IMG/VR virus record: IMGVR_UViG_3300025322_000062 | Span: 1 to 44,253 of that record | Origin: a virus | Direction: 5' to 3' (one strand) | Length of the DNA: 44,253 nt | Shown: positions 5,306-41,896 of the stretch, in pieces | Numbering within the stretch: position 1 is the stretch's first letter | Layout: every line of letters starts with the position of its first letter | Made by a program: the position numbers and the translations under genes | Notes under the pieces: model-generated | What the model saw: the letters and a program-made list of their open reading frames with translations, nothing else | Database searches by the model: none | Told to the model about the DNA's origin: nothing

Positions 5306-5619
5306 ACAATATAGTTTTATCTGTGGTTATTCCTAGTTACCGAGACCCCCTGTTACATAAGACAATAGAGTCTCTTTTAACACATTCTGGTCTTGGAGCT
5401 GGTCTGGAGATTATTCCCGTACTAGATGGTTACTGGCCCGAAACCCCCATTGTAGATGACGAAAGAGTACGAATAGTACATCTAGGTAAGAATCGTGGTA
5501 TGCGGGGGGCGATAAATGCGGGAGTGTCAGTATCCAGAGGAGAGCTTATTTGCAGACTTGATGAACACTGTTGTTTTGACCAAGGTTGGGATAGAAAAAT
5601 GGCTGAGGCATACCAATAA
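5302..5619 (+). pseudogene. N-terminal fragment of a family 2 glycosyltransferase, split by an HNH gene
   Basis: GTG start at 5302 overlaps the previous stop. The 105 residues match the N-terminal half of a GT2 domain: LSVVIPSYRDP (first beta strand), then IIPVLDGYWPE, an RGAINAGV-like segment, and [23 protein letters not shown], equal to MKVDAHCSFDKGFDRKMLEAF in the related gene at 11546. The frame stops at 5617-5619 just before an HNH gene. The rest of the enzyme resumes at about 6081 in a different frame ([11 protein letters not shown]). The two pieces could act as a split enzyme, or be joined if the insert is spliced; no intron core is evident. Confidence 0.7.
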
Positions 5620-21757: not shown

Positions 21758-24700
21758 ATGCCACTATATGCTACAAAAAAGAAAACTGATTCGGATAGAC
21801 TTAAACAACTACTAGAAATAGCGAGCGAATCGGGATTAGAACCCCCAAAACCACAACCCACAGCGTTAGAAAGAATAATAGGACTATTAAGATCGGCAGA
21901 GACTTCTGGTATTGCGGCTGATATACAATCTGGCAAGGGACTGATGGAATCTCTTGGAAATTATGGACAAAGACTTGGTAAGGGTTTGACAGGACAGGGA
22001 CTTACAAAAGAGGATCTAAGCGGCGTAGAGGGATATAAAGAGGTCCTTACCAGAGCGGGAGTATCAGACCAGCCATTATTTGAGCTTGGTCCTATAAAAC
22101 CTTCTGTCGCTGGGATTGCTGGATTTGCTGGAGATATATTTCTTGACCCATCAACTTATCTTACTGGTGGTCTAACCAAGCTTGGAAAACAGGCTGCCAA
22201 GACCGCAGGCAAAGAAACCCTTGAAGCATTAGCAAAGAAGGCAACAACTAATGTTGCCAGAGATATTGTAGAGAAGGGAACTCAATTTGCTGGAAAACGA
22301 ACTGTTGAAAAGTTAGGAGGTACTGCAACAGAACAGGCTGCTTTAGGACAAAGAGGATTGATAAATGTATTCGGCAAGTCCTTACTGCCAAGGGGAGTTA
22401 GTAAAGCAGTATATGAAACAAGTGATACATTACTGCGCAAACTTGGGGAAACGCAGGTTGGGAAAACCATAGATTCTTTTAGAAAAATATTCAAAGACGA
22501 CCTAGTACCTCTTGCGGCAAAGGGAACCCCATTAGAAACCGAGTTGACAGAAACATTTGCAATCAAAAGACTTGCTAAAAATAAGTTGGCTCAAGTAGAC
22601 AACTACACAAATGCCTCCTTAAAGAGAATAGAGAAAGAGGCATTTAAGGTTGGCGGTAAAGACATAGTTAAAGTCAAATCCGTAATGGCAGAAGTAGAGG
22701 ATATTATGGAACACACCAAGCCTGGAGAATCCCTGGCGTATGTTAGAGAGGATATTAGACCGTTGGCAGAGGAAGTTAGAGGTTTTAGAGACTATGTGAA
22801 TAAGATGTATACCGAGGTTGGAGGGGGGAATTTAACTGATGATGAAGTATCCTACTGGATCCATGCTCTAACACTCGATGAGTTCGGAAAAGTAGCAAAA
22901 GGCGCAGGATTTAGTGCCAGAGAGTTCACGGATAAGGTAGCTTCCGACTATGTAAGAAACTATGGCAAGGTTGTCGGGGAAAATGGGGAGGAGTTCGTTG
23001 GACATATTAAGACATTGGAAAGAGAGCATGGTCTTGAAAGTGCCGACTCATACATAGGAAATCTAACTAGGAGAGCAGGTAAAATAAAGAGTGCCTATAA
23101 TAATAAGATTTCCAAGCTAGAAACCCAAGAAAGTACATTGGGAAAAGCTCAAATAGGAAGATTTCTTAAAGGAAAAACAAAAGGAGAATCTTTAATAGAA
23201 AAAAGGACAGCAAATTCCTTGAACATAATATCAAAGATAGACGATAGAATAAAATGGTTGGAAGAACAAACACTTAAGGGACTTAGATACCCAATAACAA
23301 AGGAACAAGCAGAACAAGTCGTAACCAATAAGATTATGAAATCTATAAGAGAGGCCAGTGTAAGGATGTTTGATGCAAATAAGTTAAAAGAAGATATTGC
23401 TAATATACCTCTTGCCAGCGGAAGAACTGCTGAATTTAATATCTCAGACGACCTAATAGAAAAAATCTTAAAAGAACTAGAAGACCTAAAAATAGAAAAG
23501 AAAATAGAAGAAATAGAATTAAAAGCTTTAGGACACGGGGGGGTAAGAAGACTTACACCTAAACAGGCTTTTGAACAGGGACAGGTAGTAGTCAAGAAGG
23601 CTGGTATTACCAGAGGGAAAATCGGGACTATAAGAGATACCATAAAAGATTTTAAGTCCTTAAGAGATGATAAGTTAAAAGAAATAGACGATATATTAGC
23701 TAAAGTTGACTTTAATAAGACAGATAAATTCTACTTTAAAAGGGGTATGGATTTTACTGACGAAGATTTAGTCGTTCCCAGTGCATTAAAAAGAGAGATT
23801 TACCAATTCAAAAATGCTACTGTTAAGGAAATAAACGACACATTAGGATTTGAAAAGTTTTCTACTGATTTGTTTTACACAACTTACCTTATGGGTAAGA
23901 GAATAGGAAAGAAGGCTGCTGGGTCAGATTATTTAAACCTCGCTACTGGTCTTGGTAGAGCCACTTCTGGTGCTCCAGAGGGTTGGGTAAAATCTACAGC
24001 TCCATTTTTCAAGGGTAGGGATATAGTTTTTCGTCCAGAGATAGCAAAACAGATAGACAACACCTATAAAGCATATTTCTCAGATGAAGCATTAAATGAT
24101 GTCTTAAATATTTTTGATAAGGTGCAAAACATTTGGAAAACCTCCGTAACTTCTGTATGGCCTGCGTTTCATACTAGAAACTTTGTATCAAATATATGGC
24201 AGAACTGGCTTGGAGATGTAAATAATCCGCAAGTCTACACAGATGCCTTGGAAATATTATACATAAAAAAGACTGGGGGGGTTTTATCGGAAAAACAGGA
24301 AAAGCTATACCAATCCTTTTTGGATAATGCGTTAAGTGGTTATGGATTCTTTGGCGGGGACTTACCAAAAGGGGGTCTTGAAGAATTAACTACCAAAGGA
24401 CAAATAAAGAAACTCTTAAAATTACCTGAAACTGGTGGTAAGGCTTTGGGTAATGCAGTAGAAGACTTGGGAAAACTAGCACACTTTATGGATAAGATAA
24501 ATAAGGGTTATTCTTCGGTTGATGCGGCGGCATCAGTAAGAAAGTACCTATTCGACTATACAGACCTTTCCGATACAGAAAAATATATATTCAAAAGAAT
24601 AAGTCCCTTTTACTGTGTTCCAGATACATCGGAAATACTCACAAAGTTTGGGTTTAAGACACACCAAGACTTAATAGTAGGGGAAGAGGTAATAACCTAC

Positions 24701-26266
24701 AACGTAGAAAAAGACTGCCTTGAATGGAAGCCTGTCTTGGAGGTTGCTGTTTTTGATTATGACCAAAATATAAGAACCTGGGAAAATAAAAGACACAAGC
24801 TGTATTTTACTCCGAATCATAGGTGGGTTTATAAAAGAAATAAAGGAACAACAATAAGACCTTATGGTATATACAAATACCCAGAAACAATCGGAATAAA
24901 GGAATCTACAGAACTTACCAAACAAGATTACATAAAGGTTTCTTCCAAGTACAGCGGAGGTGGAGACGGGTTGGACGTTAAAAGTGCGAGACTTCTTGGT
25001 TGGCTCTTAACTGATGGGTACTTCAGATGGAGAGGCGGATACTGCGGGGCGTTAATATACCAACACCCGAAGAAGTTTCTAAGGGAAGTAATAGAGGTGT
25101 CTGGAGGTGTCCCTAGAAAACCCCATCCGCAGAGTAGGGTGGTAGCAGTTCCCGTTATAAAAGAAAATCTTAAACCAATAGAGCATTTATTAAAAAGAAA
25201 TAAACAAAAAGATGATTGGGTAAATGTAGTTACGGAAATGTCTAAAGAGTCCTTAGAGGCCATGTATGACGCTATGTATAAGGGAGATGGAACGGTTAAG
25301 GGAAAACAGAGATTCTTTGCTTGTCAGTTGGATGGGGTTGGAAAAACCTTTGAAGTTCTGGCTACACTGCTTGGTTACCGTATCGTAAAAAACGATAGGG
25401 GGTTTTATATCAGCGACACACAAACTTTAGGAATAAAGGATGGAAAGTTCTCAGAGGAACCTTACTTTGGTAAGGTGTGGTGTCCAAAAACAGAAAATGA
25501 AACATGGGTAATGAAACAAGGTAAGTTAATCACTATCACAGGAAACACTTTCACTCGGAAAAACCTTCCAATGGAACTTGAGGCGTTAATGACCAATCCT
25601 GGTAAGTTCTCTACTTTGGCAAAGGGTATGAGGGTTGCGGGATATGACCCTAATCAGGAAGGTGTCCCTACCTATATGAGGGAACAACCATCGTTTAAGG
25701 TTGGGGAGAAGTTTTTATCTGGGGGAGTTCTGGGAATACCAGCATTTGAGCCTTTGGAGATGATAGGAGAGACCCCAGCTAGGTCATTAGAAAAGACTTT
25801 ATCAAAGAGTCTTGGACCACTATTAAAAGTTCCTTTAGAGACTGCTACAGATAGAAGTTTATATCAAGGCCGTCCATTATCAGAAGTTAGGGGAGTGGAA
25901 AAGATATGGGGAGATAAAATAGACAATGCGGGGCTTAGTGATAAGTTTGGGCTTCAGAAGTTAAAAGATAAAAGCGGGAACACTTATTACACTACATCCA
26001 ATCCAGCTTTATGGAACACGCTAAGAAATGTATTTGCCAGAGTAATGAATTCTCCGTCTGCGTGGGAAAGAGTTAAAAATCAAGACCTTAATGATATGTA
26101 CGCTTTAGCAAACGCTATTACTGGCATAGTCCCCAAGAGTAGAGGTGAAGAAGTAAAGGCAATGTATGATAAGGAAACCGAGAAAAAGCTATTTGAATTT
26201 CTTAGGGGTAAAGGAAAGGCTTACGAGTTCTCATTGTATAGCAAGTCTAAACAAATAACACAATGA
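21758..26266 (+). CDS. Giant internal virion protein with an intein
   Basis: 1502 residues, of which 953-1263 are an intein, so the mature protein is about 1191 residues. Long helical stretches dominate. A segment near residue 790-830 (LNIFDKVQNIWKTSVTSVWPAFHTRNFVSNIWQNWLGD) and the later KYIFKRISPFY plus TFTRKNLPMELEALMTNPGKFS resemble large polyvalent-protein domains (LPD38-like) of ejected or jumbo phage proteins. The intein sits exactly between PFY and TFTRKN, the most conserved site. It follows coiled-coil virion proteins and precedes the lysozyme. I infer a role in genome ejection. Confidence 0.7.
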   Translation: MPLYATKKKTDSDRLKQLLEIASESGLEPPKPQPTALERIIGLLRSAETSGIAADIQSGKGLMESLGNYGQRLGKGLTGQGLTKEDLSGVEGYKEVLTRAGVSDQPLFELGPIKPSVAGIAGFAGDIFLDPSTYLTGGLTKLGKQAAKTAGKETLEALAKKATTNVARDIVEKGTQFAGKRTVEKLGGTATEQAALGQRGLINVFGKSLLPRGVSKAVYETSDTLLRKLGETQVGKTIDSFRKIFKDDLVPLAAKGTPLETELTETFAIKRLAKNKLAQVDNYTNASLKRIEKEAFKVGGKDIVKVKSVMAEVEDIMEHTKPGESLAYVREDIRPLAEEVRGFRDYVNKMYTEVGGGNLTDDEVSYWIHALTLDEFGKVAKGAGFSAREFTDKVASDYVRNYGKVVGENGEEFVGHIKTLEREHGLESADSYIGNLTRRAGKIKSAYNNKISKLETQESTLGKAQIGRFLKGKTKGESLIEKRTANSLNIISKIDDRIKWLEEQTLKGLRYPITKEQAEQVVTNKIMKSIREASVRMFDANKLKEDIANIPLASGRTAEFNISDDLIEKILKELEDLKIEKKIEEIELKALGHGGVRRLTPKQAFEQGQVVVKKAGITRGKIGTIRDTIKDFKSLRDDKLKEIDDILAKVDFNKTDKFYFKRGMDFTDEDLVVPSALKREIYQFKNATVKEINDTLGFEKFSTDLFYTTYLMGKRIGKKAAGSDYLNLATGLGRATSGAPEGWVKSTAPFFKGRDIVFRPEIAKQIDNTYKAYFSDEALNDVLNIFDKVQNIWKTSVTSVWPAFHTRNFVSNIWQNWLGDVNNPQVYTDALEILYIKKTGGVLSEKQEKLYQSFLDNALSGYGFFGGDLPKGGLEELTTKGQIKKLLKLPETGGKALGNAVEDLGKLAHFMDKINKGYSSVDAAASVRKYLFDYTDLSDTEKYIFKRISPFYCVPDTSEILTKFGFKTHQDLIVGEEVITYNVEKDCLEWKPVLEVAVFDYDQNIRTWENKRHKLYFTPNHRWVYKRNKGTTIRPYGIYKYPETIGIKESTELTKQDYIKVSSKYSGGGDGLDVKSARLLGWLLTDGYFRWRGGYCGALIYQHPKKFLREVIEVSGGVPRKPHPQSRVVAVPVIKENLKPIEHLLKRNKQKDDWVNVVTEMSKESLEAMYDAMYKGDGTVKGKQRFFACQLDGVGKTFEVLATLLGYRIVKNDRGFYISDTQTLGIKDGKFSEEPYFGKVWCPKTENETWVMKQGKLITITGNTFTRKNLPMELEALMTNPGKFSTLAKGMRVAGYDPNQEGVPTYMREQPSFKVGEKFLSGGVLGIPAFEPLEMIGETPARSLEKTLSKSLGPLLKVPLETATDRSLYQGRPLSEVRGVEKIWGDKIDNAGLSDKFGLQKLKDKSGNTYYTTSNPALWNTLRNVFARVMNSPSAWERVKNQDLNDMYALANAITGIVPKSRGEEVKAMYDKETEKKLFEFLRGKGKAYEFSLYSKSKQITQ
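24614..25546 (+). mobile_element. 311-residue intein with LAGLIDADG endonuclease
   Basis: Begins at Cys953 (CVPDTSEILT, block A) and ends at Asn1263 (ITITGNT, block G), with Thr as the next residue. Block B is TPNH at intein residues 66-69. The two LAGLIDADG helices are LLGWLLTDGYF (127-137) and LEAMYDAMYKGDGTV (214-228). Block F is VWCPKTENETWV. The residue before Asn is Gly instead of the usual His, a known variant. The splicing ends and endonuclease motifs are all present, so protein splicing is expected. Confidence 0.92.
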
Positions 26267-28717: not shown

Positions 28718-29209
28718 ATGGCTCTCACCAAGAAGCAACTTGAATGGGCAAGGAGAGTCTACTCACCGAAAGGAGTTTTGTTTTGTCACTTTCCCATCTA
28801 CACGGAAAAACATGGATGGGGTTATTGTGGTTCTACCATAAAGATTGAAATAAACCACGTAAAGCCACAAGGATGGACGAAACGGATTCTTAAGAAAAAT
28901 CCCGACTATCCTACAAACCTTGTGGCTATTTGTAAATTTCACCATGTGGGTTGGGGCTATCAAGGAACACTTGACTGGGAGAACGAGGTAGTTTTTGTCA
29001 TTCACACGGACACCGCCTTAGCCTACCGTCAATATAGGGACAATAGAAGTGCTTTTGAAGAAGTTTTTGCAGACCGTGAAGTTGCGACGGATAGAAAGGA
29101 GAAGTACTGGAATACGGACTGGGATTCTACACTTACTAGGATTGCACAACAGTGTGTTTCTAGGTATTTGTACGAACACCCAAGAGATCCGTTTCCTAAA
29201 AAAAGATAG
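28718..29209 (+). CDS. HNH-endonuclease-like protein
   Basis: 163 residues, ATG 28718 behind AAGGAGGACTAG, a strong site. The HNH core is EINHVKPQGW (catalytic His) plus NPDYPTNLVAICKFHHVGWG, with additional Cys pairs (CHF, YCGS). The N-terminus (ALTKKQLEWARRVYSP) is basic. It does not carry NUMOD3 motifs. It sits between the lysis genes and an intron-like RNA, so it may serve that intron, or be a packaging-associated HNH. The remainder of the sequence (YWNTDWDSTLTRIAQQ) is not recognised. Confidence 0.6.
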   Translation: MALTKKQLEWARRVYSPKGVLFCHFPIYTEKHGWGYCGSTIKIEINHVKPQGWTKRILKKNPDYPTNLVAICKFHHVGWGYQGTLDWENEVVFVIHTDTALAYRQYRDNRSAFEEVFADREVATDRKEKYWNTDWDSTLTRIAQQCVSRYLYEHPRDPFPKKR

Positions 29210-29238
29210 CCCTTAGGTGCAAAACATTTAGGGGCTAT
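29206..29238 (-). terminator. Hairpin with U-tract in the leftward direction
   Basis: ATAGCCC (29206-29212) pairs with GGGCTAT (29232-29238). On the plus strand it is preceded by an A-run, so on the minus strand it reads as stem then TCTTTTTTT, a leftward intrinsic terminator. It overlaps the stop of the 28718 gene. It could also stop rightward transcription weakly. Confidence 0.5.
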
Positions 29239-29248
29239 TCTTACAAAA

Positions 29249-29280
29249 ATGTCCTTGACTTCTTTCAAAGAAAAGGACAT
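29249..29280 (-). terminator. Second hairpin, U-tract on the leftward side
   Basis: ATGTCCTT (29249-29256) pairs over 8 bp with AAGGACAT (29273-29280), with an inner TCTTT/AAAGA pairing. On the minus strand it is followed by TTTTTG. Together with the hairpin 11 nt to its left it makes a tandem terminator for leftward transcripts. Confidence 0.55.
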
Positions 29281-30108: not shown

Positions 30109-30212
30109 GATTTAGATTAAAGTTATACTTAAAATATCTATTTAACAGAAAGAAATACGTTAGGGATTTAGATAGGTTTGATTTAAGTAGGTTTAATTTA
30201 TGGAATCTTTAA
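30105..30212 (+). CDS. Tiny basic protein (35 aa)
   Basis: ATG 30105 overlaps the stop of the gene before it (ATGA), and its end overlaps the next gene start. Sequence MRFRLKLYLKYLFNRKKYVRDLDRFDLSRF, strongly basic at first. Overlap on both sides suggests translational coupling rather than chance. Function unknown. Confidence 0.4.
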   Translation: MRFRLKLYLKYLFNRKKYVRDLDRFDLSRFNLWNL

Positions 30213-30754
30213 AAAAATTACGGCTGTCGTATAGTTTAATTTCCTGTTGGGAGCGTGGAGACATACAAGGAGCAATAGACACATATTTCCATGTAGACAG
30301 ACCAGGTAATGTGGCAATGGACAATGGAAAGAGAGTTCACAAAGAAATAGAAGAATACATAAACACACATAATTCTTTTCCTAATTGGTTTTTTAATTAT
30401 GATTTAAACATTCCAGAAACAGAAAAAGAAGTAATTGTGCCTTATAACGAATTGTTTGATATTAAAGGAGTATTTGATTGTCTTGATGTATTAAACAGAA
30501 CTTTATTTGAATTTAAGACAGGAAATTCTGATTCTCTTGAATGGGCGAGAACATGGCAAATTCCTATTTATTTTTTGATAGCGGAAATTGATAAGATTGA
30601 TATTGATAAAGCAATACTGATAAGAAACAATGGAACAGAATCTGATTTTTGTGTAATACATAATTCTCAAAGACTTAGGGATGAGGCAAGAAATGTTATT
30701 GATAGTACGGGATATAATATTTGGAAGTATTTTGACGATCAGGGGTTAATATGA
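30200..30754 (+). CDS. RecB/Cas4-like PD-(D/E)XK nuclease
   Basis: 184 residues. The nuclease motifs are all visible: GKRVHKEIEEYI (His47 in the RecB-family helix), FDIKGVFDCLDV (Asp93), TLFEFKTGNS (Glu104-x-Lys106), and WQIPIYFLIAE (Gln120 and Tyr124, the QxxxY motif of the RecB/Cas4/lambda-exonuclease group). There is no iron-sulfur Cys set as in Cas4. Such single-domain nucleases act in recombination, replication or host DNA processing. It begins inside the end of the preceding ORF. The next gene overlaps its stop. Confidence 0.78.
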   Translation: MESLKKLRLSYSLISCWERGDIQGAIDTYFHVDRPGNVAMDNGKRVHKEIEEYINTHNSFPNWFFNYDLNIPETEKEVIVPYNELFDIKGVFDCLDVLNRTLFEFKTGNSDSLEWARTWQIPIYFLIAEIDKIDIDKAILIRNNGTESDFCVIHNSQRLRDEARNVIDSTGYNIWKYFDDQGLI

Positions 30755-31005
30755 TTGAAGTATTCATAGAAAAACCAATTTATGGCAATTTCGTTTATGT
30801 TAGAGACTCGTACTTGAATAAAGCTGAGCGCACAGGAGACAAGCTTCGTATAAAAACTCCAAAAGGAGGGATTGTCTGTACTTACGAGCAGTGGAAACAC
30901 GGGGCAAAATATATGGAGAAGGTATTTAAAAGGCCTGATGAACCCATGAAGCTTTGGGGAAATAAAGTTCCTGTGATTGATGAAAACCAACTAAGTCTTA
31001 TATGA
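30751..31005 (+). CDS. Small hypothetical protein (84 aa)
   Basis: ATG overlaps the previous stop (ATGA). Sequence EVFIEKPIYGNFVYVRDSYLNKAERTGDKLRIKTPKG then IVCTYEQWKHGAKYMEKVF. Beta-then-helix pattern, no cysteine set. Position between the RecB-like nuclease and an HNH nuclease suggests a DNA-processing helper. Function unknown. Confidence 0.55.
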   Translation: MIEVFIEKPIYGNFVYVRDSYLNKAERTGDKLRIKTPKGGIVCTYEQWKHGAKYMEKVFKRPDEPMKLWGNKVPVIDENQLSLI

Positions 31006-31400
31006 AATATACAAAAAAAACTTTAATGAGAAATAATGGTGTTCTTGATAAATTATGGCGTTCGGTTGGCAAGGAAAAAGCTCGTTGTGAGATATGTGAA
31101 ACCTTGCCAAAAAAAGAAAGAATAAATTACTCCAAACTAGATCCCCACCATATTATAAAACGAGGTCATAAAGCTACAAGATGGGATAAAAGAAATCGTT
31201 TGTGGGTTTGTTCCTCTCATCACACTTTGGGAAAAAAGACTGTTGAGTATAACGAAGCGGGATGGTTTTGGGGGGAAGGAGATTGCTGGTTGTTAAAACA
31301 CAGGCCGGAGGATAAGAAATACCTGGAAGAAAAGAAATATGAAATAAAACAGTGGTCATTGGATGAGTTGTTACATTTAATGGTAGAATTGGAAGCATGA
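31002..31400 (+). CDS. HNH nuclease (NinG/Rap-like)
   Basis: 132 residues, ATG overlapping the previous stop. Residues 27-72: CEIC, then LDPHHIIKRGHKATRWDKRNRLWVCSSHHT, the full HNH core (CxxC, HH, N, CxxH-H). This arrangement resembles lambda NinG-like and recombination-linked HNH proteins rather than homing endonucleases, since there is no NUMOD region. The C-terminus (KKYEIKQWSLDELLHLMVELEA) is helical. Co-located with a RecB-like nuclease, so I infer a role in recombination or DNA processing. Confidence 0.7.
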   Translation: MKYTKKTLMRNNGVLDKLWRSVGKEKARCEICETLPKKERINYSKLDPHHIIKRGHKATRWDKRNRLWVCSSHHTLGKKTVEYNEAGWFWGEGDCWLLKHRPEDKKYLEEKKYEIKQWSLDELLHLMVELEA

Positions 31401-31523
31401 TAAATAAATGGGAAAGTAAATGCAGTTGCTCAGGTATTTTACTTTGTTCTTTCATTTCCATATTTCAACACGCTCCTTCTTGTTTATTACACCCTAAAGG
31501 TGTGCTGAATTGGAGGAATAAAT

Positions 31524-31607
31524 GGTAACGCTATCTTTGGTTCATGCTTGAGGAGAGACGTCTATAATATTATTATAGTCTCCCAAATACTGAGGATAGC
31601 GTCAACC
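31524..31607. other. Strongly folded intergenic element
   Basis: Nested inverted repeats: GGT/ACC outer (31524-31526/31605-31607), ACGCTATC/GATAGCGT (31528-31535/31595-31602), GGAGA/TCTCC (31552-31556/31579-31583), and CTATAATA/TATTATAG (31562-31569/31571-31578). All share one axis, so the strand folds into one long branched or bulged hairpin. It lies between the HNH gene and a 41-aa ORF and has no U-tract. It may be a small RNA, an mRNA control element or a protein binding site. Confidence 0.6.
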
Positions 31608-31615
31608 ATAAATAT

Positions 31616-32227: not shown

Positions 32228-32418
32228 ACCCTCCCCTTTTGTTTGGTTTTGAGGGCTAATAGCGCTCTGTTGTGTAAGTCCTCACTGCAAGTTACTTTCC
32301 CGCTTCTCAACTTAGATATATAACTCTTATCGACACCTAACATTCTTCCAAGTTCTTTGACACCCACCCTACCCCAAATGGAATAATCCACATATTTTCT
32401 AGTTACTGTATAGATCAT
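32224..32418 (-). CDS. Cro/CI-type helix-turn-helix regulator
   Basis: 64 residues. The HTH is VGVKELGRMLGVDKSYISKLRSGKVTCSEDL, a clear XRE-family fold covering residues 19-50, short enough to be a Cro-like DNA binder without an oligomerisation domain. Stop overlaps the next gene (32227). It is the only XRE-type regulator I see, in the leftward early array, so it likely controls that array or lysogeny. Confidence 0.75.
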   Translation of the reverse strand: MIYTVTRKYVDYSIWGRVGVKELGRMLGVDKSYISKLRSGKVTCSEDLHNRALLALKTKQKGRV

Positions 32419-32681
32419 TCCTCTACCTCTCTGCTATCTTTGGTGGGTTGGATATATTGTCTTAGTTCTTCTCCCTCCTTAATATTTGTAGGATAATCAT
32501 CCACATAAATATTCGACATGTACTTCGCTCGTCCGCCACGAACCACGCCCTCATATTTCCAAATAACATATCCTTCAGCCAACCTACTAAATATTTTCTC
32601 TACTTCCCCACTAACGCTTTTTGTAGCTAGTCCACCATCAATGTAACCCTTTTTGTATACTTCTTCTTTTTTATCTATCAT
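32415..32681 (-). CDS. Hypothetical protein (88 aa), leftward array
   Basis: Start ATG 32681 preceded by AGAGGATATTTT; a TTG at 32699 is an alternative. Sequence starts MIDKKEEVYKKGYIDGGLATKSVSGEVEKIFSRL, with YVIWKYEGVVRGGRAKYMSNIYVDDYP in the middle. Mixed alpha/beta; no domain recognised. It overlaps the HTH gene start (ATGA) and follows the hairpin element at 32711-32786. Confidence 0.55.
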   Translation of the reverse strand: MIDKKEEVYKKGYIDGGLATKSVSGEVEKIFSRLAEGYVIWKYEGVVRGGRAKYMSNIYVDDYPTNIKEGEELRQYIQPTKDSREVEE

Positions 32682-32710
32682 AAAATATCCTCTTAGCAAT
32701 TAAATAATTA

Positions 32711-32786
32711 ACACAAACCTTGAGACAAGACTAATGCCTGTCCAGAAGACTTAAACTTTCCTATCCTATCTCAAGGTCTGTGTCAG
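32711..32786 (-). repeat. CTGACAC-hairpin element, copy 1
   Basis: On the plus strand ACACAAACCTTGAGA (32711-32725) and TCTCAAGGTCTGTGT (32769-32783) form a 15-bp inverted repeat with a single G-U pair when read leftward. GTGTCAG (32780-32786) gives CTGACAC at the beginning of the leftward copy. It stands between two leftward genes. Copies 2 and 3 share the CTGACAC start but have different stems. Confidence 0.65.
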
Positions 32787-32817
32787 CCTCTCTCATAAGT
32801 TATCAACTAACCTCTCG

Positions 32818-33246
32818 TTAATCAACATCTCTGTAGGCGATACTTAATTTCTGTTCTCTTTCTGTTTCATTGACGCCATCAGGTAATTCTCCCACCTCTT
32901 TAATGTACTTGTCTACTTTGTCCGAGTCTACTGAATAGTAAATCTTCTCTTTTAAGAACGGCATACAGGCATTCTTTTTAGTAAAATCATAGGAGTATTT
33001 AGCCCCAAACTTCTTATAGATACAACTAACCCTATCTCCTTTAACTCCCTTGAAGTTAGGGTTTATAGCCTTTCCAGCACTCCCAATACTCTCTTTAATC
33101 TTTTCTTCCCATCCCTGAAGCATGAGTATAGCTTCGTGTATCTTTAATATCTGTTCCTCCGCTTCAGGTTTGAATAAGAATGCACCCGCCTTATCAGCGT
33201 ATATTGCAATCTGTTTCGGGTCTATTACGATTAAATCTTTGTCCAT
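32818..33246 (-). CDS. Hypothetical protein (142 aa), leftward array
   Basis: Start ATG 33246 directly follows the stop of the 33247 gene. Sequence includes IDPKQIAIYADKAGAFLFKPEAEEQILKIHEAILML and NPNFKGVKGDRVSCIYKKFGAKYSYDF. Basic middle and acidic end; it resembles small proteins of recombination modules (Gam or single-strand-binding context) only in composition and position. No motif is decisive. Confidence 0.55.
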   Translation of the reverse strand: MDKDLIVIDPKQIAIYADKAGAFLFKPEAEEQILKIHEAILMLQGWEEKIKESIGSAGKAINPNFKGVKGDRVSCIYKKFGAKYSYDFTKKNACMPFLKEKIYYSVDSDKVDKYIKEVGELPDGVNETEREQKLSIAYRDVD

Positions 33247-33759
33247 TTACTTTCCTAACACTTCTCCGATAACTTTAGACGCTTGGGCTTTGGTCATACC
33301 CTCATCCCACAACCCCTTCTCTTTTAGAAGGGTCATCTGAGCTCCTGTAGCACCCTCAGACGAATTAGAATCATTAAACCGTACAAAGTCGCACCCACCG
33401 GCAGTCTTGGTCATAAAATCGTATTTAGACGTACTACACTTCACACCTGACTTGGTTCCATCCTTGGATGTAAACTTAATTAAAGGACTTCCACATTTAG
33501 GACAGATTTCACCCTCTACAACTTGAGGAGCGGGTTTAGCTGGAAATCCATAGCTTTTCTTAACTTCAGGTGTGTATCCATCTGTGGCAAGTTTGGTTTC
33601 CAATAACCTCATTGTGTCTAACAGTTCTGCCTCATCGTGCGACCTAACAGTAAATATCAAAGGATATCCGCCCTTAGACACCAAACTGTAACTTACCGAG
33701 CTTTTGGCTTCGGGCATATTGTCCACTAAAATGTGTTCTTTTACTTCTTTTTCCTTCAT
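33247..33759 (-). CDS. Zinc-ribbon protein (170 aa), leftward array
   Basis: Residues about 87-130 contain ICPKCGSPLIKF and later VKCSTSKYDFMTKTAGGCDFV, a C-x2-C zinc ribbon like those of topoisomerases. The C-terminus (TGAQMTLLKEKGLWDEGMTKAQASKVIGEVL) is the small helical DNA-associated repeat common in phage proteins. The N-terminal half is beta-rich. Start ATG 33759 overlaps the preceding stop (ATGA). Likely a DNA-processing protein; exact role unknown. Confidence 0.6.
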   Translation of the reverse strand: MKEKEVKEHILVDNMPEAKSSVSYSLVSKGGYPLIFTVRSHDEAELLDTMRLLETKLATDGYTPEVKKSYGFPAKPAPQVVEGEICPKCGSPLIKFTSKDGTKSGVKCSTSKYDFMTKTAGGCDFVRFNDSNSSEGATGAQMTLLKEKGLWDEGMTKAQASKVIGEVLGK

Positions 33760-33923
33760 TTCTTTTCCTTTCCTAATTTATTTCTACTTACAATGGCAAA
33801 TATCCGTGTGCTTGATAGTTTGTATTTAATAGACAAGTCCAGCATTCCCATACCACTTTCTTTGTCTTTTACTATATGTTTATTTCTCTCTTGAAACCAT
33901 TTTGGATTATCCCAGTAATTCAT
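33756..33923 (-). CDS. Small HTH-like protein (55 aa)
   Basis: Start ATG 33923 after AAGGAGGATAT, a strong site. The region MLDLSIKYKLSSTRIFAIVSRNK looks like a short helix-turn-helix of the sigma-70/Mor type. Preceded by MNYWDNPKWFQERNKHIV. It is the first gene after a strong promoter and its stop overlaps the zinc-ribbon gene. I infer a regulatory role. Confidence 0.6.
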   Translation of the reverse strand: MNYWDNPKWFQERNKHIVKDKESGMGMLDLSIKYKLSSTRIFAIVSRNKLGKEKK

Positions 33924-33940
33924 ATATCCTCCTTGACCTC

Positions 33941-33969
33941 AATATACTCTATATTCATAATATTGTCAA
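33941..33969 (-). promoter_or_regulatory. Leftward sigma70 promoter
   Basis: On the minus strand TTGACA (33964-33969) and TATATT (33941-33946) are separated by exactly 17 nt, near consensus. The leader to ATG 33923 is short with a Shine-Dalgarno, so this gene is not leaderless. The sequence around the -35 (TTGACAATAT) is shared with the promoter at 36243-36271. Confidence 0.8.
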
Positions 33970-34034
33970 TCCCTTGTTCCTAAATAAGTTAGTAATATGA
34001 GCCACAAAACGGCAACAAATATAACCATGTTTCC

Positions 34035-34289
34035 TTAAATAATTAACTCTATCTGCCATTCAACCCACGATCTATCGCAGGCTCTATCAACCGCCCCATC
34101 AATGTTATCAAGCATTCTATCCGAATCAGGTCTATCCATATCAAACGGATCAGCACCCCCATTAGAGGCCAAACGATCCATAATTTCCCTATCTTCCATT
34201 ATTATTTTTTTTAGATTGTTTTGTATCTCCGATTGTTTTGACTCTGATAATTCGTTAAATCTTATTATGTAATTACTCTTTTGTTTCAT
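34035..34289 (-). CDS. Hypothetical protein (84 aa), leftward array
   Basis: Start ATG 34289; stop at 34035. Helical, with an acidic C-terminal half (RLASNGGADPFDMDRPDSDRMLDNIDGAVDRACDRS). Sequence begins MKQKSNYIIRFNELSESKQSEIQNNLKKI. No known domain. It overlaps the tiny preceding ORF (ATGA). Confidence 0.5.
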   Translation of the reverse strand: MKQKSNYIIRFNELSESKQSEIQNNLKKIIMEDREIMDRLASNGGADPFDMDRPDSDRMLDNIDGAVDRACDRSWVEWQIELII

Positions 34290-34351
34290 TTTCCTTTCCC
34301 TTCAAATGTTTTATCACATACTTCATTTATTTTTGTTAGTTTTTTTGTCAT
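34286..34351 (-). CDS. Tiny ORF (21 aa) overlapping both neighbours
   Basis: ATG 34351 overlaps the stop of the 109-aa gene (ATGA) and its own stop overlaps the next start (ATGA). Sequence MTKKLTKINEVCDKTFEGKGK. The double overlap suggests a real coupled reading frame, but such a short length gives little support. Confidence 0.35.
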   Translation of the reverse strand: MTKKLTKINEVCDKTFEGKGK

Positions 34352-34677
34352 ATTAAACCTTCACTTTCCTGATAATCTTTATAACTTGCGTACCCTTCTT
34401 GCTCTAAAAAGTCTTTCTTTTTCTCCTCGTTTACATCATGTTGGATATCTTCCCTAGCTATTTCATCTCTTTCAGCTTTCTCTATATCTACCATTTCCTT
34501 GTTCACTTCAATCTTTCCTGCATTAAACATCAATAATCCCCATATTTCAGCGACAGATACAATATCTTCTACATCAAGCGTTCCTAACCAATTATTATAA
34601 TCATCTGACATTAAATCATCTGTACCACGATACTGTTTAGCGTGTGCTTCTTTTAAATAATCCTCAAACTTTTTCAT
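34348..34677 (-). CDS. Acidic hypothetical protein (109 aa), leftward array
   Basis: Start ATG 34677. Strongly acidic and helical: MKKFEDYLKEAHAKQYRGTDD, EKAERDEIAREDIQHDVNEEKKKDFLEQEGYASYKDYQ. Contains DYNNWLGTLDVEDIVSVAEIWGLLMF. Resembles DNA-mimic or anti-restriction-like acidic proteins in composition only. Function unknown. Confidence 0.5.
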   Translation of the reverse strand: MKKFEDYLKEAHAKQYRGTDDLMSDDYNNWLGTLDVEDIVSVAEIWGLLMFNAGKIEVNKEMVDIEKAERDEIAREDIQHDVNEEKKKDFLEQEGYASYKDYQESEGLI

Positions 34678-34716
34678 TAGTTCCTTTCTGTTAGTCTTAA
34701 ATATCTATAATTATAT

Positions 34717-34758
34717 CGGTGGTTCTTGATGACTAACAAACAAAAACCACCGTGTCAG
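34717..34758 (-). repeat. CTGACAC-hairpin element, copy 2
   Basis: CGGTGGTT (34717-34724) pairs with AACCACCG (34745-34752) over 8 bp, extended by TTG/CAA after one mismatch, and GTGTCAG (34752-34758) gives the leftward CTGACAC. Same order as in copies 1 and 3: CTGACAC, then stem. A second GTTAGTC/GACTAAC pair (34690-34696/34731-34737) overlaps it. Confidence 0.65.
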
Positions 34759-34775
34759 TCGTAATGTCAGTCTAG

Positions 34776-35024
34776 TTAGTTCAAAAACTGGCATAGCACC
34801 TCATAGTCGCATTGATTAATCTGATACACTTTTACCAGTTCTACCTCTCTATAGTCATTTTTTGTCCACTCTTTGCTATTTTGCATTAGTTTCTTAACTG
34901 CTGACGCTTCCGTTAGAGCCTCGCAGACATCTTTTTCCCAATACTCATACTCCCCGTCAGTTATAGACACAATTCCAAACCAGTAAATTCCGTCATCGCC
35001 CTTAAATCTTTTTGTTTCTTCCAT
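34776..35024 (-). CDS. Hypothetical protein (82 aa), leftward array
   Basis: Start ATG 35024 chosen because AAAGGCGG is 8 nt upstream; a GTG at 35033 is too close. Sequence MEETKRFKGDDGIYWFGIVSITDGEYEYWEKDV then CEALTEASAVKKLMQN. Mixed alpha/beta, acidic. No recognised family. Confidence 0.5.
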   Translation of the reverse strand: MEETKRFKGDDGIYWFGIVSITDGEYEYWEKDVCEALTEASAVKKLMQNSKEWTKNDYREVELVKVYQINQCDYEVLCQFLN

Positions 35025-35052
35025 ATTATTCACCGCCTTTCGGATTGATTAA

Positions 35053-35292
35053 CTAATTAAACTGTAGTTCCTCGTGTGTATGTACTGCAATACCTCTGTT
35101 ACTCAATTCGTCTAGAACTACGCCCCATCGTTGAAAATCACGGGTACCGTAGCAACCTATGTTGTAAATCATGTCAGATAGTACTGTGGCTTCTTCTTTT
35201 AGCTTCTTGGTTGTCCATTTTGTTATGTTCGTGCTACTATCATCACGTTTCCTATCGCTCACATCCTCAAATTCAGTTATATTTTTTGTCAT
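35053..35292 (-). CDS. Hypothetical protein (79 aa), leftward array
   Basis: Start ATG 35292 with AAAGGGGGTG 8 nt upstream, nearly the same ribosome site as its downstream neighbour. Sequence contains TTKKLKEEATVLSDMIYNIGCYGTRDFQRWGVVLDELSNRG. Helical; no known motif. Confidence 0.5.
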   Translation of the reverse strand: MTKNITEFEDVSDRKRDDSSTNITKWTTKKLKEEATVLSDMIYNIGCYGTRDFQRWGVVLDELSNRGIAVHTHEELQFN

Positions 35293-35320
35293 ATTTAACA
35301 CCCCCTTTGATAAACTAACT

Positions 35321-35356
35321 GCTAGGCATATCTGCTCTATATGCCCAGCGTGTCAG
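35321..35356 (-). repeat. CTGACAC-hairpin element, copy 3
   Basis: GCTAGGCATAT (35321-35331) and ATATGCCCAGC (35339-35349) pair over 11 bp with a single G-U pair when read leftward, and GTGTCAG (35350-35356) gives the leading CTGACAC. The 7-nt loop is short, unlike copy 1. Confidence 0.65.
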
Positions 35357-35369
35357 TCGGTCAAGCCCA

Positions 35370-35762
35370 TTAAATAGTTGTATTTACCCATTCAATAAAT
35401 GACGCTGACTTTTTGGTTAGTTCCTCCCATTCCTCCAACTTTTCTTTTAGGGTTTCCCATGTTCCTTGTAAATCTTGTTCAATAGCATAATACTGTCCTT
35501 GCATTATTGCTTTTATCATATCGGGTTTTCCCTCCGTATCTTCTGGAAACCCAAACTCTTGTATTGCATCCTCAACAAAGTAGTAGTTTTTAGGTAGCCA
35601 CTCTAAAAGGTCGTGGGTATAAATATCAACTAATGAGTCCGAAAGCTCTGTTATATTATCGTGCGGTTCGTCTTCCTTTAGTGTTTCAATTAATTCATTG
35701 TCTGTCGGGTAATAATCAAGTAAAGCGCCAAACGCTTCTTTTTCATTCTTATAGTAATTCAT
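35370..35762 (-). CDS. Acidic hypothetical protein (130 aa), leftward array
   Basis: Start ATG 35762 following a GGATAATG site. Very acidic and helical: DNELIETLKEDEPHDNITELSDSLVDIYTHDLLEWL and EKLEEWEELTKKSASF. No Cys or known motif. Acidic proteins of this kind in early phage arrays sometimes mimic DNA or bind host factors, but nothing here proves that. Confidence 0.5.
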   Translation of the reverse strand: MNYYKNEKEAFGALLDYYPTDNELIETLKEDEPHDNITELSDSLVDIYTHDLLEWLPKNYYFVEDAIQEFGFPEDTEGKPDMIKAIMQGQYYAIEQDLQGTWETLKEKLEEWEELTKKSASFIEWVNTTI

Positions 35763-36242: not shown

Positions 36243-36271
36243 ATGATAAACTCATATCCACATATTGTCAA
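36243..36271 (-). promoter_or_regulatory. Leftward sigma70 promoter heading the array
   Basis: Minus-strand TTGACA (36266-36271), 17-nt spacer, TATCAT (36243-36248). The leader to ATG 36196 is about 40 nt. The -35 region TTGACAATAT is also present in the promoter at 33941, so both may share control. Confidence 0.75.
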
Positions 36272-37880: not shown

Positions 37881-38194
37881 TTTTATATAATCCTAAGGAC
37901 GAGAATGTTGAATTTTCCTATGGAGGGATTCGTATATATTTTAAGTCAAAGGAATCAAAGACGCTACCTGAGCATGTAGCAATCCACGCCCTGGAAAGAG
38001 CTAGAGTAGGGCTTGTGGAATACAATCCCACTTACGATAAAGAAATGACGGCTACAGATATGAGCTATCCTGAAATGCCCTGGAGAAAACTCGTTTCCTT
38101 AGCTTCAGCCAGAGGGATATTTAAGCCAGGAACTAAAAGACCAGTCCTGGAGAAAGATTTAGAAGATTATGACACCCAAGGAAGAACTTTATAG
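37877..38194 (+). CDS. Hypothetical protein before the large terminase (105 aa)
   Basis: ATG 37877 behind GTAAGGAGGGCTA. Mixed alpha/beta (FSYGGIRIYFKSKESKTLPEHVAIHALERARVGLVEY) with a charged C-terminus (GTKRPVLEKDLEDYDTQG). It overlaps the terminase start by 26 bp. Function unknown; position suggests packaging. Confidence 0.55.
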   Translation: MILYNPKDENVEFSYGGIRIYFKSKESKTLPEHVAIHALERARVGLVEYNPTYDKEMTATDMSYPEMPWRKLVSLASARGIFKPGTKRPVLEKDLEDYDTQGRTL

Positions 38195-39665
38195 AAGTCT
38201 TCTGATTAAAAAGAAAGAAAAAGGACTTAGAAATTTATTCTTTTTTAATAAATTTATTATAGAATCAGAGGAAAGACGCAGAAATCTTTTAGTTGAGCGT
38301 GTTCACGGGGAGTGGGATAACTGGTATAGACATTCAACTAAGAGAATAAAAATGATTCTAGTCCCTAGAGGTACTTTTAAGAGTTCTTTCTTTACTGTTG
38401 GTAGAACCATTCAAGCTATTTGTCAGGACAGAAAAAATAGTGTTCTAATTGCCAATGCAACACTTGCTAATGCACAACAGTTTGTCGGGGAGATTAAGGA
38501 ACATTTCAGAAAGAATCCAGAATTAAAAAGATTGTATGGGGAGTTTTACGACCCTAGTCTTAGATGGAATGAAAACGAATTTGATGTAACAGGTAAGGGA
38601 TTGGGTAGTAAGGAGGCTAATGTTACGGCGGTTGGAGTAGGAGGAAATCTAGTTTCTAGACATTATAAGAAAATAATCTGTGATGACTTAATGAATCTTG
38701 AAAATTCCAGCACTAGATATTTGACAGACAAGGTGGTGGATTGGTGGAGAAGAGCCTTCTCACTTCTTGATTATGATGGTGAACTTTTAATTATTGGGAC
38801 TCGTTGGAGTTATTATGATTTATATTCCTGGATTCAGGATAAATACAAGGGGGAAGTAGATATCTATATTCGTGGGTCACATAATGAGGACGGTAGTTTG
38901 TATTTCCCTGAACTTTTAAGTGAGGAAAAACTTAAAGAACTTCGGATGCTTCAAGGTTCCTACATCTTTAGTTCGTTTTACGAAAATAATCCGATTGACG
39001 ATAAATCGTCCCTTGTAAGTCATGAGCAGATAAGATATTACGGACAAGGGGAAACCTACGAATCCCCGCCCAAAGAACTTAATATTTTTGCTGTTTGTGA
39101 CCCCGCCGTTAGTCAATCTACCCAGGCAGATGAATCTTCAATTACAGTTGTTGGGGTTGATTGGGACAATAACTGGTGGGTTTTGGAAACCCGTGGGGGG
39201 CAATGGACTACTGGAGAACTTATTGAACAGCTCTTTGCAGTTAGACTTCAATGGAATCCGTTAACAATGACGATAGAGGTGATAGGTCAAGCCCAGGGAC
39301 TTATGCTTCCAATACATGACGAGGAAGACAGGAGAAAGATTTATCTTCCTTTAGTAGAAATTAACGCTCGTGGGCAAACCTCTAAGGAGCAGAGGATTCG
39401 TTCGGTTTTACAACCTAGATTTGAGAGGGGAAAGATATTCATTAAAAGGGAGATGTTTGACCTTGAAGAGCAGATTTTGCATTTTCCTCATGGTAAGAGG
39501 GACGATATTATTGATGCTTTGTCGGATGTCGAGGATATAGCCCATCCCGCTGATGTGGTTTCCGAACCTTTTAGGGGTTCTGGAAGTCGTTTACAGGATA
39601 TTTTAATTAAGGGTAAGGAGAAGCCCACGGAGTACATAGATGAGTTCCTTGGTGAAAATTATTGA
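38169..39665 (+). CDS. terL: Terminase large subunit
   Basis: 498 residues. ATPase motifs: a Walker A-like VPRGTFKSS at 65-73 (a form common in podovirus terminases), Walker B IICDD with Asp172-Asp173, and the coupling motif IIGTRWS near 208-214. Nuclease domain: FAVCDPAV with Asp311, an acidic Glu370 (TIEVIGQAQG), and GKRDDIIDALSD with Asp445, Asp446 and Asp449, the RNase H-like site. It packages DNA into the procapsid by ATP-driven translocation and cuts it. Start ATG 38169 overlaps the previous gene. Confidence 0.93.
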   Translation: MTPKEELYRSLLIKKKEKGLRNLFFFNKFIIESEERRRNLLVERVHGEWDNWYRHSTKRIKMILVPRGTFKSSFFTVGRTIQAICQDRKNSVLIANATLANAQQFVGEIKEHFRKNPELKRLYGEFYDPSLRWNENEFDVTGKGLGSKEANVTAVGVGGNLVSRHYKKIICDDLMNLENSSTRYLTDKVVDWWRRAFSLLDYDGELLIIGTRWSYYDLYSWIQDKYKGEVDIYIRGSHNEDGSLYFPELLSEEKLKELRMLQGSYIFSSFYENNPIDDKSSLVSHEQIRYYGQGETYESPPKELNIFAVCDPAVSQSTQADESSITVVGVDWDNNWWVLETRGGQWTTGELIEQLFAVRLQWNPLTMTIEVIGQAQGLMLPIHDEEDRRKIYLPLVEINARGQTSKEQRIRSVLQPRFERGKIFIKREMFDLEEQILHFPHGKRDDIIDALSDVEDIAHPADVVSEPFRGSGSRLQDILIKGKEKPTEYIDEFLGENY

Positions 39666-39746: not shown

Positions 39747-39983
39747 ATGGAGATTTTCTTAATTATAGTAATTGCCTTTCAATTTGCGTATTTAGTATTT
39801 TCTGATTTTCAAAATAGAGCGGAAAGAGAAAGATTACAGCTTAAACTTATGAGTAAGGATTTAACAGATTACAAATCCGCCGTGGAAAAAGAACCAGAGA
39901 AGTCGGCAGTTGAAGAAGAAGACCCTTATGTAACAATGGAAGAAGCTGGAGTTGAAAAGGTTTTACGAGCTGAGGAAAAATAA
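39747..39983 (+). CDS. Small membrane-anchored protein before the portal (78 aa)
   Basis: An N-terminal membrane helix (IFLIIVIAFQFAYLVF) then a charged helix (QNRAERERLQLKLMSKD) and acidic tail (EKEPEKSAVEEEDPYVTMEEAG). Start ATG 39747 by promoter spacing. Its stop overlaps the portal start. A membrane-linked packaging or assembly helper is possible; not established. Confidence 0.6.
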   Translation: MEIFLIIVIAFQFAYLVFSDFQNRAERERLQLKLMSKDLTDYKSAVEKEPEKSAVEEEDPYVTMEEAGVEKVLRAEEK

Positions 39984-41896
39984 TGATAGAAGTTGACAAA
40001 AAACCCTGGGACAAGTTAGACAACGAGCAAAAGATAGCTTATTGTGAGTCTTTATTAAAGAGTGTTAAAACCTCCAGAGAACTAAATGACCTAGAATGGT
40101 ACACAAACTACCAATTTGAACGTGGAAACCATTATATGATGGTTAATACTGTAACAGGAAATCTTGAAGCCAATCCTCCAAAGAAAAGAGGAGAAGTTAG
40201 AATGATGGTCAATAAGATTCGTTCCACTAAAAGAGCTATTCAAAATTATGTAACAAGAACACAACCTAAGTGGGAGATTATTCCCGGGGATACTGATGAC
40301 GATACGGTAAAAAATGCCAGAAGAATAGGCAAGACAATGGATTATTTATACAGAAGATTACACCTTGAACAAATGGTTTCGGGCGTTGTAGATACGGGTC
40401 TTTCTACTTCTGTTGGTGTTATAGAAATTGATTGGGATGAAAATGCGGAAGGTGGAATCGGGCAGGTTAGGGTAAGACAGCACGACCCCTTTGATGTATG
40501 GTGGGATAGAAGAGCGTATTTATATGCAGGTAGACTTGTTTCACGATTCTTGGCTAAAACAGTAGTTAAATCGGTAGATGAAATAAAATCCGACACAACA
40601 TATGATGAAAAATCAAGAAAAGAAGTAAAGCCCGATGAGGAGTTGGCTACTTCAAGATTAAAAGCCAAAATTATAAAAAAGGAAATGGGTTCGGATGAGG
40701 AAAAGGTAATTCCTACCGCTACGGTAAAGGAGTTTTTACTGTGGGATGACGAGAAGAATTCAAAGAAGGGAAGAATTAAACTTTTTACTTATTCTGGAGA
40801 CCAAGTATTAAAAGAAGAAGATTTAGAAGATAAGGAATATCCAATTTATATTTATCAAATACAAATGAATCCGCTAAAGGTTTATCAAAGAGCGTGGGTA
40901 ACTGATGCCGTACCGTTGAATAAAGCTATAGATAGAGCACTTTCTCAAAAGATTATGTACATGAACCAAGCGTTGGTTTATAGAGTTATAGCTGAAAAGG
41001 GACACGGTGCGGGGATTGTTACAAACGAAATGGGCGAGGTGTTAGAAATAAATAAAGGCAGAACCTACGCCCAAATGACTATGAACCCAATGCCCGCAGG
41101 ATATGACGCAGTTACGGATGAATTGAATGCTTATTTGGAAGATATTTTAGGAGCGCACGATGCCGCTCTTGGGAGAATGCCCACAGGAGCTAGGTCTGGG
41201 GCCACATTAGAGGCAATTCAAGCGGCAGATTCTAATAACTTGACAGGATTAACAGCGTCTTTGGAGTCGTTTTTGTCGGTTGTTGGAGAAAGAATTTTAA
41301 ATATTATAGCTAAAAAGTATCAGGTTTCAAGGATAGCCAAGATTGCAGAACCAGAGGAAGGTCAGGAATATCTTAAGGTAATAGGAGAGGGTTCAAAGCA
41401 ACGACCAGAGGGAGCTACGATTATTACTGAGGATAACGAAGTCATTGTAAAGATTGGTTCGTGGTTAGGACACACGTTGGAAGCAAAACGAGAAACTATG
41501 ATGAAGCTGGGGGAAATGGGAGTTTTGCCAGCGGAGGAGATTTTAAGACAGTTTGAATTTCCTAATGTAGAGGAACTTTCGGAAAAAGCCAGAGACCAGA
41601 GAATGGAACAAGGTCAGATGGATTTGGCTATTGCGGGCCACGCTCAAAGTGAAGGAGGTCAGCAATTTCAAGGCACGACAGACCCACAAAAAATGATAGC
41701 CTTGGCAGATAAGGAAAATATGGGTATGATGAATGGGGAGCAAATTCCACCCACTGAAGGTGCGGATATTGTTCACACTCAAACCCATTCTGACTTTACC
41801 AGAACAGATATGTATGCCTCTGCACCACCAGAGGTTCAGCAAATTTTTGCAACTCATGTGGCTGGTGAGATGCAACAACATGGAATGGTAAGGTAA
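39983..41896 (+). CDS. Portal protein
   Basis: 637 residues, ATG overlapping the previous stop (ATGA). Sequence features of podovirus-type portals: an N-terminal WYTNYQFERGNHYM and KIRSTKRAIQNYVTRTQPKWEIIPGDTDDDTVKNARR, then LYRRLHLEQMVSGVVDTGLSTSVGVIEIDWD and VRQHDPFDVWWDRRA, conserved in the portal stem and wing. Later parts include TGARSGATLEAIQAADSNNL and a Gln/Met-rich C-terminus. Portals form the ring through which the genome is packaged and released. It follows the large terminase, as is usual. Confidence 0.88.
   Translation: MIEVDKKPWDKLDNEQKIAYCESLLKSVKTSRELNDLEWYTNYQFERGNHYMMVNTVTGNLEANPPKKRGEVRMMVNKIRSTKRAIQNYVTRTQPKWEIIPGDTDDDTVKNARRIGKTMDYLYRRLHLEQMVSGVVDTGLSTSVGVIEIDWDENAEGGIGQVRVRQHDPFDVWWDRRAYLYAGRLVSRFLAKTVVKSVDEIKSDTTYDEKSRKEVKPDEELATSRLKAKIIKKEMGSDEEKVIPTATVKEFLLWDDEKNSKKGRIKLFTYSGDQVLKEEDLEDKEYPIYIYQIQMNPLKVYQRAWVTDAVPLNKAIDRALSQKIMYMNQALVYRVIAEKGHGAGIVTNEMGEVLEINKGRTYAQMTMNPMPAGYDAVTDELNAYLEDILGAHDAALGRMPTGARSGATLEAIQAADSNNLTGLTASLESFLSVVGERILNIIAKKYQVSRIAKIAEPEEGQEYLKVIGEGSKQRPEGATIITEDNEVIVKIGSWLGHTLEAKRETMMKLGEMGVLPAEEILRQFEFPNVEELSEKARDQRMEQGQMDLAIAGHAQSEGGQQFQGTTDPQKMIALADKENMGMMNGEQIPPTEGADIVHTQTHSDFTRTDMYASAPPEVQQIFATHVAGEMQQHGMVR

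Follow-up and report, generated by a model that had tools for sequence, protein, structure and literature searches.

Three hairpins lie in gaps between the genes of a leftward array in the virus record IMGVR_UViG_3300025322_000062, which was analyzed as a whole (44,253 nucleotides, nt) and is referred to below as the window. We propose that two of them (elements 1 and 3), and with more doubt element 2 too, represent intercistronic hairpins of an early polycistronic mRNA that may be processed by ribonuclease III (RNase III), as in bacteriophage T7, a proposal that we hold with about even confidence. The array is composed of small genes, mostly with acidic products, and extends over approximately 31.8-36.3 kb of the window. 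The anatomy of the hairpins, together with the comparison with T7 and with related viruses, makes RNase III-type processing the most likely reading.

Anatomy and significance of the hairpins

The original prediction, made from the sequence alone, described these elements as the word CTGACAC followed by a hairpin. Indeed, the minus-strand copies of the word at 32780-32786, 34752-34758 and 35350-35356 each fall between genes of the leftward array, with an inverted repeat after each of them (coordinates of all features are given in Table 1). The stems themselves were confirmed in part: hairpins 1 and 3 clearly exceed chance, although the lengths first given for them were too short (22 and 23 base pairs, bp, were found), while element 2 is only marginal. 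Element 1 spans its gap, beginning just past the stop codon of the gene immediately upstream, which is ocr-like, and running to the Shine-Dalgarno sequence AAAGGGGG of the next gene. Its CTGACAC sits in the basal 5' strand, where GACUGAC is paired with GUUAGUU. The folding z-score is -3.8 to -4.7, varying with the stretch that is folded, and the leftward RNA is 7 kcal/mol more stable than that of the other strand. The 5' strand of element 3 begins with TGACAC, taken from its copy of the word, and UGACAC pairs with GUGUUA; here, the z-score is -3.6 to -5.9, again depending on the stretch folded, and the gap folds at -40 kcal/mol in the leftward RNA versus -20 kcal/mol on the opposite strand. 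No other local fold on the whole 44-kb minus strand has as low an energy as elements 1 and 3, and both fall within gaps, which make up about a tenth of the array. None of 200 shuffles of the array matched this pair. For element 2, the folding z-score is -1.7 to -2.1 and the inverted-repeat z-score is 2.9. A distance of 14-30 nt separates the ends of elements 2 and 3 from the ribosome-binding site. A search of the elements against Rfam yielded no match above the gathering score.

Comparison with T7 and with relatives

When the early region of T7 was folded in the same way, the hairpins in its gaps, at the known sites of RNase III, gave z-scores of -3.1, -1.7, -2.4, -3.1 and -4.3, which is the range of the elements described here. 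The T7 sites R0.3, R0.5, R1, R1.1 and R1.3 are irregular hairpins of about 20 bp, found in the gaps of co-directional small early genes that include an ocr-like gene; like the present elements, they start just past the upstream stop codon and carry no U run. In R1.1, for example, the irregular hairpin contains a 4/5-nt internal loop (PMC6121014). Promoter-like sites lie upstream of all three elements, each of which occupies a gap of the leftward array, and elements 1 and 3 provide the duplex of about two helical turns (about 20 bp or more) that is typical of a T7-type site. The two systems differ in that the elements lack the T7 core sequence CTCAAGGTC...GGCCTTTATGA, in that the duplex of element 3 is perfect and closed by a long loop and element 2 is too short, and in that the terminase of this phage is distant from those of cultured phages (less than 60% identity). 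Cleavage is known for the T7 sites and putative for the elements here.

Relatives carrying the same array were recognized through homologues of the genes at 33247-33759, 32818-33246 and 34035-34289. The gaps of their early arrays contain no CTGACAC hairpin, but several contain hairpins of unrelated sequence. In the relative L031, the hairpin comes directly after an ocr-like gene homologous to the one upstream of element 1 (44-49% identity), the same placement as that of element 1, and thus position and size are kept while the sequence is not. As RNase III requires duplex length more than sequence, this fits a hairpin that is retained while its sequence changes. Among early-array gaps, 10 of 31 contain strong folds, and among the remaining co-directional gaps 6 of 55 do so (Fisher p 0.02); these counts rest on simple open-frame gene calls and are approximate.

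In the mechanism that we propose, the small genes of the leftward array, which resemble host-takeover genes and mostly have acidic products, would be transcribed from the promoter-like sites at 36271 and 33969, presumably together. In selected gaps, the RNA would form an irregular duplex of about 22 bp, corresponding to two helical turns, that starts at the stop codon of one gene and extends to the Shine-Dalgarno sequence of the next. RNase III of the host could then cut this duplex and separate the cistrons, which would leave the upstream mRNA with a structured 3' end and free the ribosome-binding site of the downstream gene, with a presumed effect on expression.

Several observations weigh against this proposal and need to be considered. 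Element 2, with 12 bp, falls short of the duplex length of about 20 bp. Strong folds are only modestly enriched in early gaps (rank test p 0.07), and the sense strand is better folded than the antisense strand in just 16 of the 31 early gaps. The packed array of L025, when examined, presented no such hairpins, and L061 has a hairpin solely at the head of its array. The asymmetry between G-U and A-C pairs is not significant once composition is controlled for (p 0.15). Finally, RNase III is putative in the host; scans of genome contigs with terminase and portal for host assignment found no relative.

The CTGACAC word and possible pseudoknot pairing

The word that had defined the elements as a family fared less well than the hairpins. 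CTGACAC occurs six times in the window, as compared with 3.2 expected, and 15 of 100 shuffles reach six copies. In 505 of 2000 shuffles (25%), at least three of the six gaps have some 7-mer in common, and in 131 of 2000 two gaps share an 11-mer. The claim of a conserved lead thus does not exceed chance, and in elements 1 and 3 the word is mostly part of the stem rather than a free lead. Nor does any relative have the word followed by an array-type gap hairpin. Scanning viral contigs for CTGACAC...GTTAGTY.ATCAA gave 24 matches, including several sets of one sequence in related contigs, none of which resembles an array-type intergenic hairpin; a stricter version of the pattern gave 0 matches. 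The G-U pairs had been taken to make sense only in the leftward RNA. With a loose scorer, the ratio of G-U to A-C was 111:60, and with a strict scorer and a composition control it became 23:11 in the significant stems of the group, where composition predicts 19.5 G-U pairs. This asymmetry was therefore dropped as proof of selection on RNA. The compensated stems do not amount to covariation: the three hairpins they belong to are not orthologues of one another, and the search for orthologues that could be aligned found none. The counterpart of element 1 in L031 is positional only and not alignable, the arrays of L020 and L022 are identical, and single-protein searches using array genes, meant to provide orthologues for covariation, found no relatives.

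Elements 1 and 2 both contain CGACTGACACG and GTTAGTY(N)ATCAA, a combination with two matches versus 0 in shuffles, although the pattern was chosen after seeing them; it perhaps reflects a common origin. The two complements can pair in both elements, and in L022 (5774-5860, minus strand) the loop sequence GCAACTC complements an upstream GAGTTGC in a possible pseudoknot that only 8 of 2000 shuffles equal. A specific CTGACAC/GTTAGT-based element, possibly a pseudoknot or a switch that pairs GACUGAC with GUUAGUC, would account for these features. Against it stand the 7-mer sharing in a quarter of the shuffles and the lack of counterpart hairpins in viral contigs and in the gaps of the relatives. 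In element 2, the GACTGAC/GTTAGTC pairings amount to -6.6 and -7.2 kcal/mol alone versus -18.2 kcal/mol for the hairpin; GACUGAC may pair only with the in-loop GUUAGUC or stay unpaired, and 126 of 2000 shuffled flanks (6%) equal the pseudoknot pairing, which was rejected for this reason. We thus regard such an element as very improbable. Equally remote is a phage-specific module (elements 1, 2 and L022) with two upstream repeats of the GACTGAC type as competitors for one complement, situated within the hairpin or next to it, and so is its use as a switch or as the site of a phage RNA-binding protein that would set the order of early gene expression.

Alternative explanations

The strongest rival is that the hairpins act uncut, by shielding the ends of the mRNA or masking the ribosome-binding site that follows, which we consider possible, at about half the weight given to processing. 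As translation gates, their stems would hide or abut the next Shine-Dalgarno sequence until a ribosome terminating upstream opened the base (coupling); alternatively, they would be barriers to exonucleases. In L031, the Shine-Dalgarno sequence AAGGA indeed forms part of the stem, on its 3' strand; in L022, the ATG is closely preceded by an internal loop that holds AGAAAG; and the stem of element 1 is followed directly by AAAGGGGG, with an extended fold that reaches the start codon. Hairpins at 5' ends stabilize mRNA in Bacillus (PMC3997798), and the elements resemble such stabilizing or Shine-Dalgarno-sequestering bacterial hairpins in being placed directly before or over a ribosome-binding site. 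They differ from them, however, in lying between cistrons and in their near-constant length of about 22 bp, which exceeds what gating needs and better suits recognition of a two-turn duplex; moreover, elements 2 and 3 stop short of the ribosome-binding site. Among the roles that the original prediction had listed, processing or stability is thus likely, while a target of a phage protein read through CTGACAC is not, as the word is at chance, forms part of two stems and is missing from the gap hairpins of relatives.

Operators, weak terminators and the CTGAC/GTTAG switch are less likely than uncut hairpins. Inverted repeats could be bound at the DNA level by a phage regulator, as operator or promoter sites; the array encodes a Mor/C-like activator, matching the late-activator family phrog_836, a promoter-like site overlaps element 2, and the lack of a significant G-U asymmetry agrees with a DNA site. 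Yet no common recognition sequence exists besides CTGACAC, no promoter-like site is found at elements 1 and 3, element 3 has five G-U and no A-C pairs among its 23, and element 1 folds better as leftward RNA, all of which make operators improbable. We hold a similarly low opinion of weak intrinsic terminators or attenuators between the array genes. The elements share with intrinsic (rho-independent) terminators a strong hairpin past a stop codon, and a terminator scan picks element 1, with 11 pairs and the tail AGTTAGTTTA. As was stated originally, however, these are not standard terminators: the tails AGUUAGUUUA, AUAUAAUUAUAG and AUUAUUUAAUUG carry no U run, in contrast to the clear leftward terminators at 29.2 kb. 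The window as a whole contains 13 terminator-like sites versus 11.5 in shuffles. After elements 1 and 3, the genes continue in the same direction with no new promoters, and those past element 3 lack a convincing promoter of their own.

Two further candidates were rejected. Integron attC sites are likewise structured sites between small co-directional genes, and have the consensus core sites RYYYAAC and GTTRRRY; GACTGAC, GTTAGTC and GTTAGTT, read against this consensus with no search for an integrase, do not fit them. Readthrough was dismissed because in-frame stops come before the TGA of CTGACAC.

Genome context and further observations

Table 1 Features of the window and gap hairpins in the arrays of relatives.
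Feature	Source	Position	Strand	Remarks
Element 1	window	35307-35364	-	irregular hairpin, 4-[2x2]-7-[2x1]-11 bp (22 bp), loop AGAGCAG
Element 2	window	34717-34752	-	12-bp hairpin CGGTGGTTTTTG/CAAGAACCACCG, 12-nt loop; 5' base is the final C of CTGACAC 34752-34758
Element 3	window	32708-32785	-	uninterrupted 23-bp stem, 5 G-U pairs, no A-C, long loop
GACTGAC copies (34766-34772, 34754-34760) and loop GTTAGTC (34731-34737)	window	34731-34772	-	can pair; possible pseudoknot
ocr-like acidic protein gene	window	35370-35762	-	130 amino acids, isoelectric point (pI) 4.1; phrog_2568 (ocr-like), E 4.9e-4; can be aligned with the product of T7 gene 0.3
Small gene downstream of element 1	window	35053-35292	-	start codon (ATG) at 35292; hairpin adjoins the Shine-Dalgarno sequence
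Small very acidic gene downstream of element 2	window	34348-34677	-	pI 4.4
Small gene downstream of element 3	window	32415-32699	-	
Mor/C-like small protein gene in array	window	33756-33923		phrog_836 late-activator match, E 1.4e-4
Sigma-70-like promoter, head of leftward array	window	36243-36271	-	TTGACA-17-TATCAT, 11/12 matches
Sigma-70-like promoter, gap without hairpin	window	33941-33969	-	TTGACA-17-TATATT
Promoter-like site overlapping element 2	window	34710-34739	-	TTGTTA-18-TATAAT, 10/12 matches
Tandem hairpin pair	window	29200-29280	-	U run after each; canonical leftward intrinsic terminators; z -4.3
Terminase large subunit gene	window	38169-39665		
Portal gene	window	39983-41896		
Gap hairpin	L031	2449-2498		22 bp, 7-[1x1]-7-[2x2]-8 bp; z -5.9 and -7.0
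Gap hairpin	L022	5774-5841		21 bp; z -4.0 and -2.9
Gap hairpin	L053	11468-11561		24 bp; z -5.5
Further gap hairpins	L053	11754-11844, 12995-13121		
Further gap hairpin	L061	4165-4281		
Further gap hairpin	L005	740-880		
Further gap hairpin	L060	9262-9434		

The terminase of the window has no match of at least 60% identity among 50,697 phage records, although related virus contigs do exist. Sigma-70-like promoter matches are not enriched in the window overall. A promoter-like sequence similar to that at 33941-33969 lies ahead of the homologous gene in L005. L061 has a small gene (5407-5601) resembling that downstream of element 2, with no hairpin ahead of it.

Many leftward array genes present a leader motif, (T)TATTTAATT(T), a few bases 5' of the Shine-Dalgarno sequence (minus strand; 36222, 36065, 35786, 34041 and 32706 in the window, and 6523, 5836 and 790 in L005), which is possibly a translation enhancer or a site of RNA cleavage. 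TTATTTAA has 10 copies on the minus and three on the plus strand. Where rightward and leftward genes meet, a strong hairpin with the arms ACGCTATC/GATAGCGT is found at 31522-31610 (both strands, z about -4). The genes at 30200-31400 are rightward in the window, but their counterparts in L022 and L025 are leftward and collinear with the array, which points to a local inversion; these genes include one for a Cas4-like nuclease, and an HNH-like gene in L022. At 21758-26266, a structural gene encodes a 1502-residue protein with an intein-like insertion around PFYCVPDTSEILTKFGF, as judged by eye from the translation.

Two structures in relatives should be mentioned as well. The gap at 9262-9434 of L060 (plus strand) is a noncoding stretch of about 170 nt, ahead of a glycosyltransferase-like gene, with a branched and very strong fold that is specific to the strand (-62 to -66 versus -30 kcal/mol, z -6). 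In L005 (minus strand), a 21-nt inverted repeat seen by eye, TTGAAAACTGAATAGGGCGTG/CACGCCCTACTTAGTATTCAA at 1342-1391 and 1785-1830, flanks the small gene 1392-1784, as though this gene had been placed in the loop of a hairpin.

Implications

The finding is ordinary in kind and new in place. If RNase III-type processing is the correct reading, the T7-style processing of early mRNA at hairpins would extend to a group of uncultivated phages whose terminase is distant from those of cultured phages. These phages would keep the length and position of the hairpin, rather than its sequence, alongside an ocr-like gene. Although the mechanism is not new, this would help in the annotation of phage early regions.

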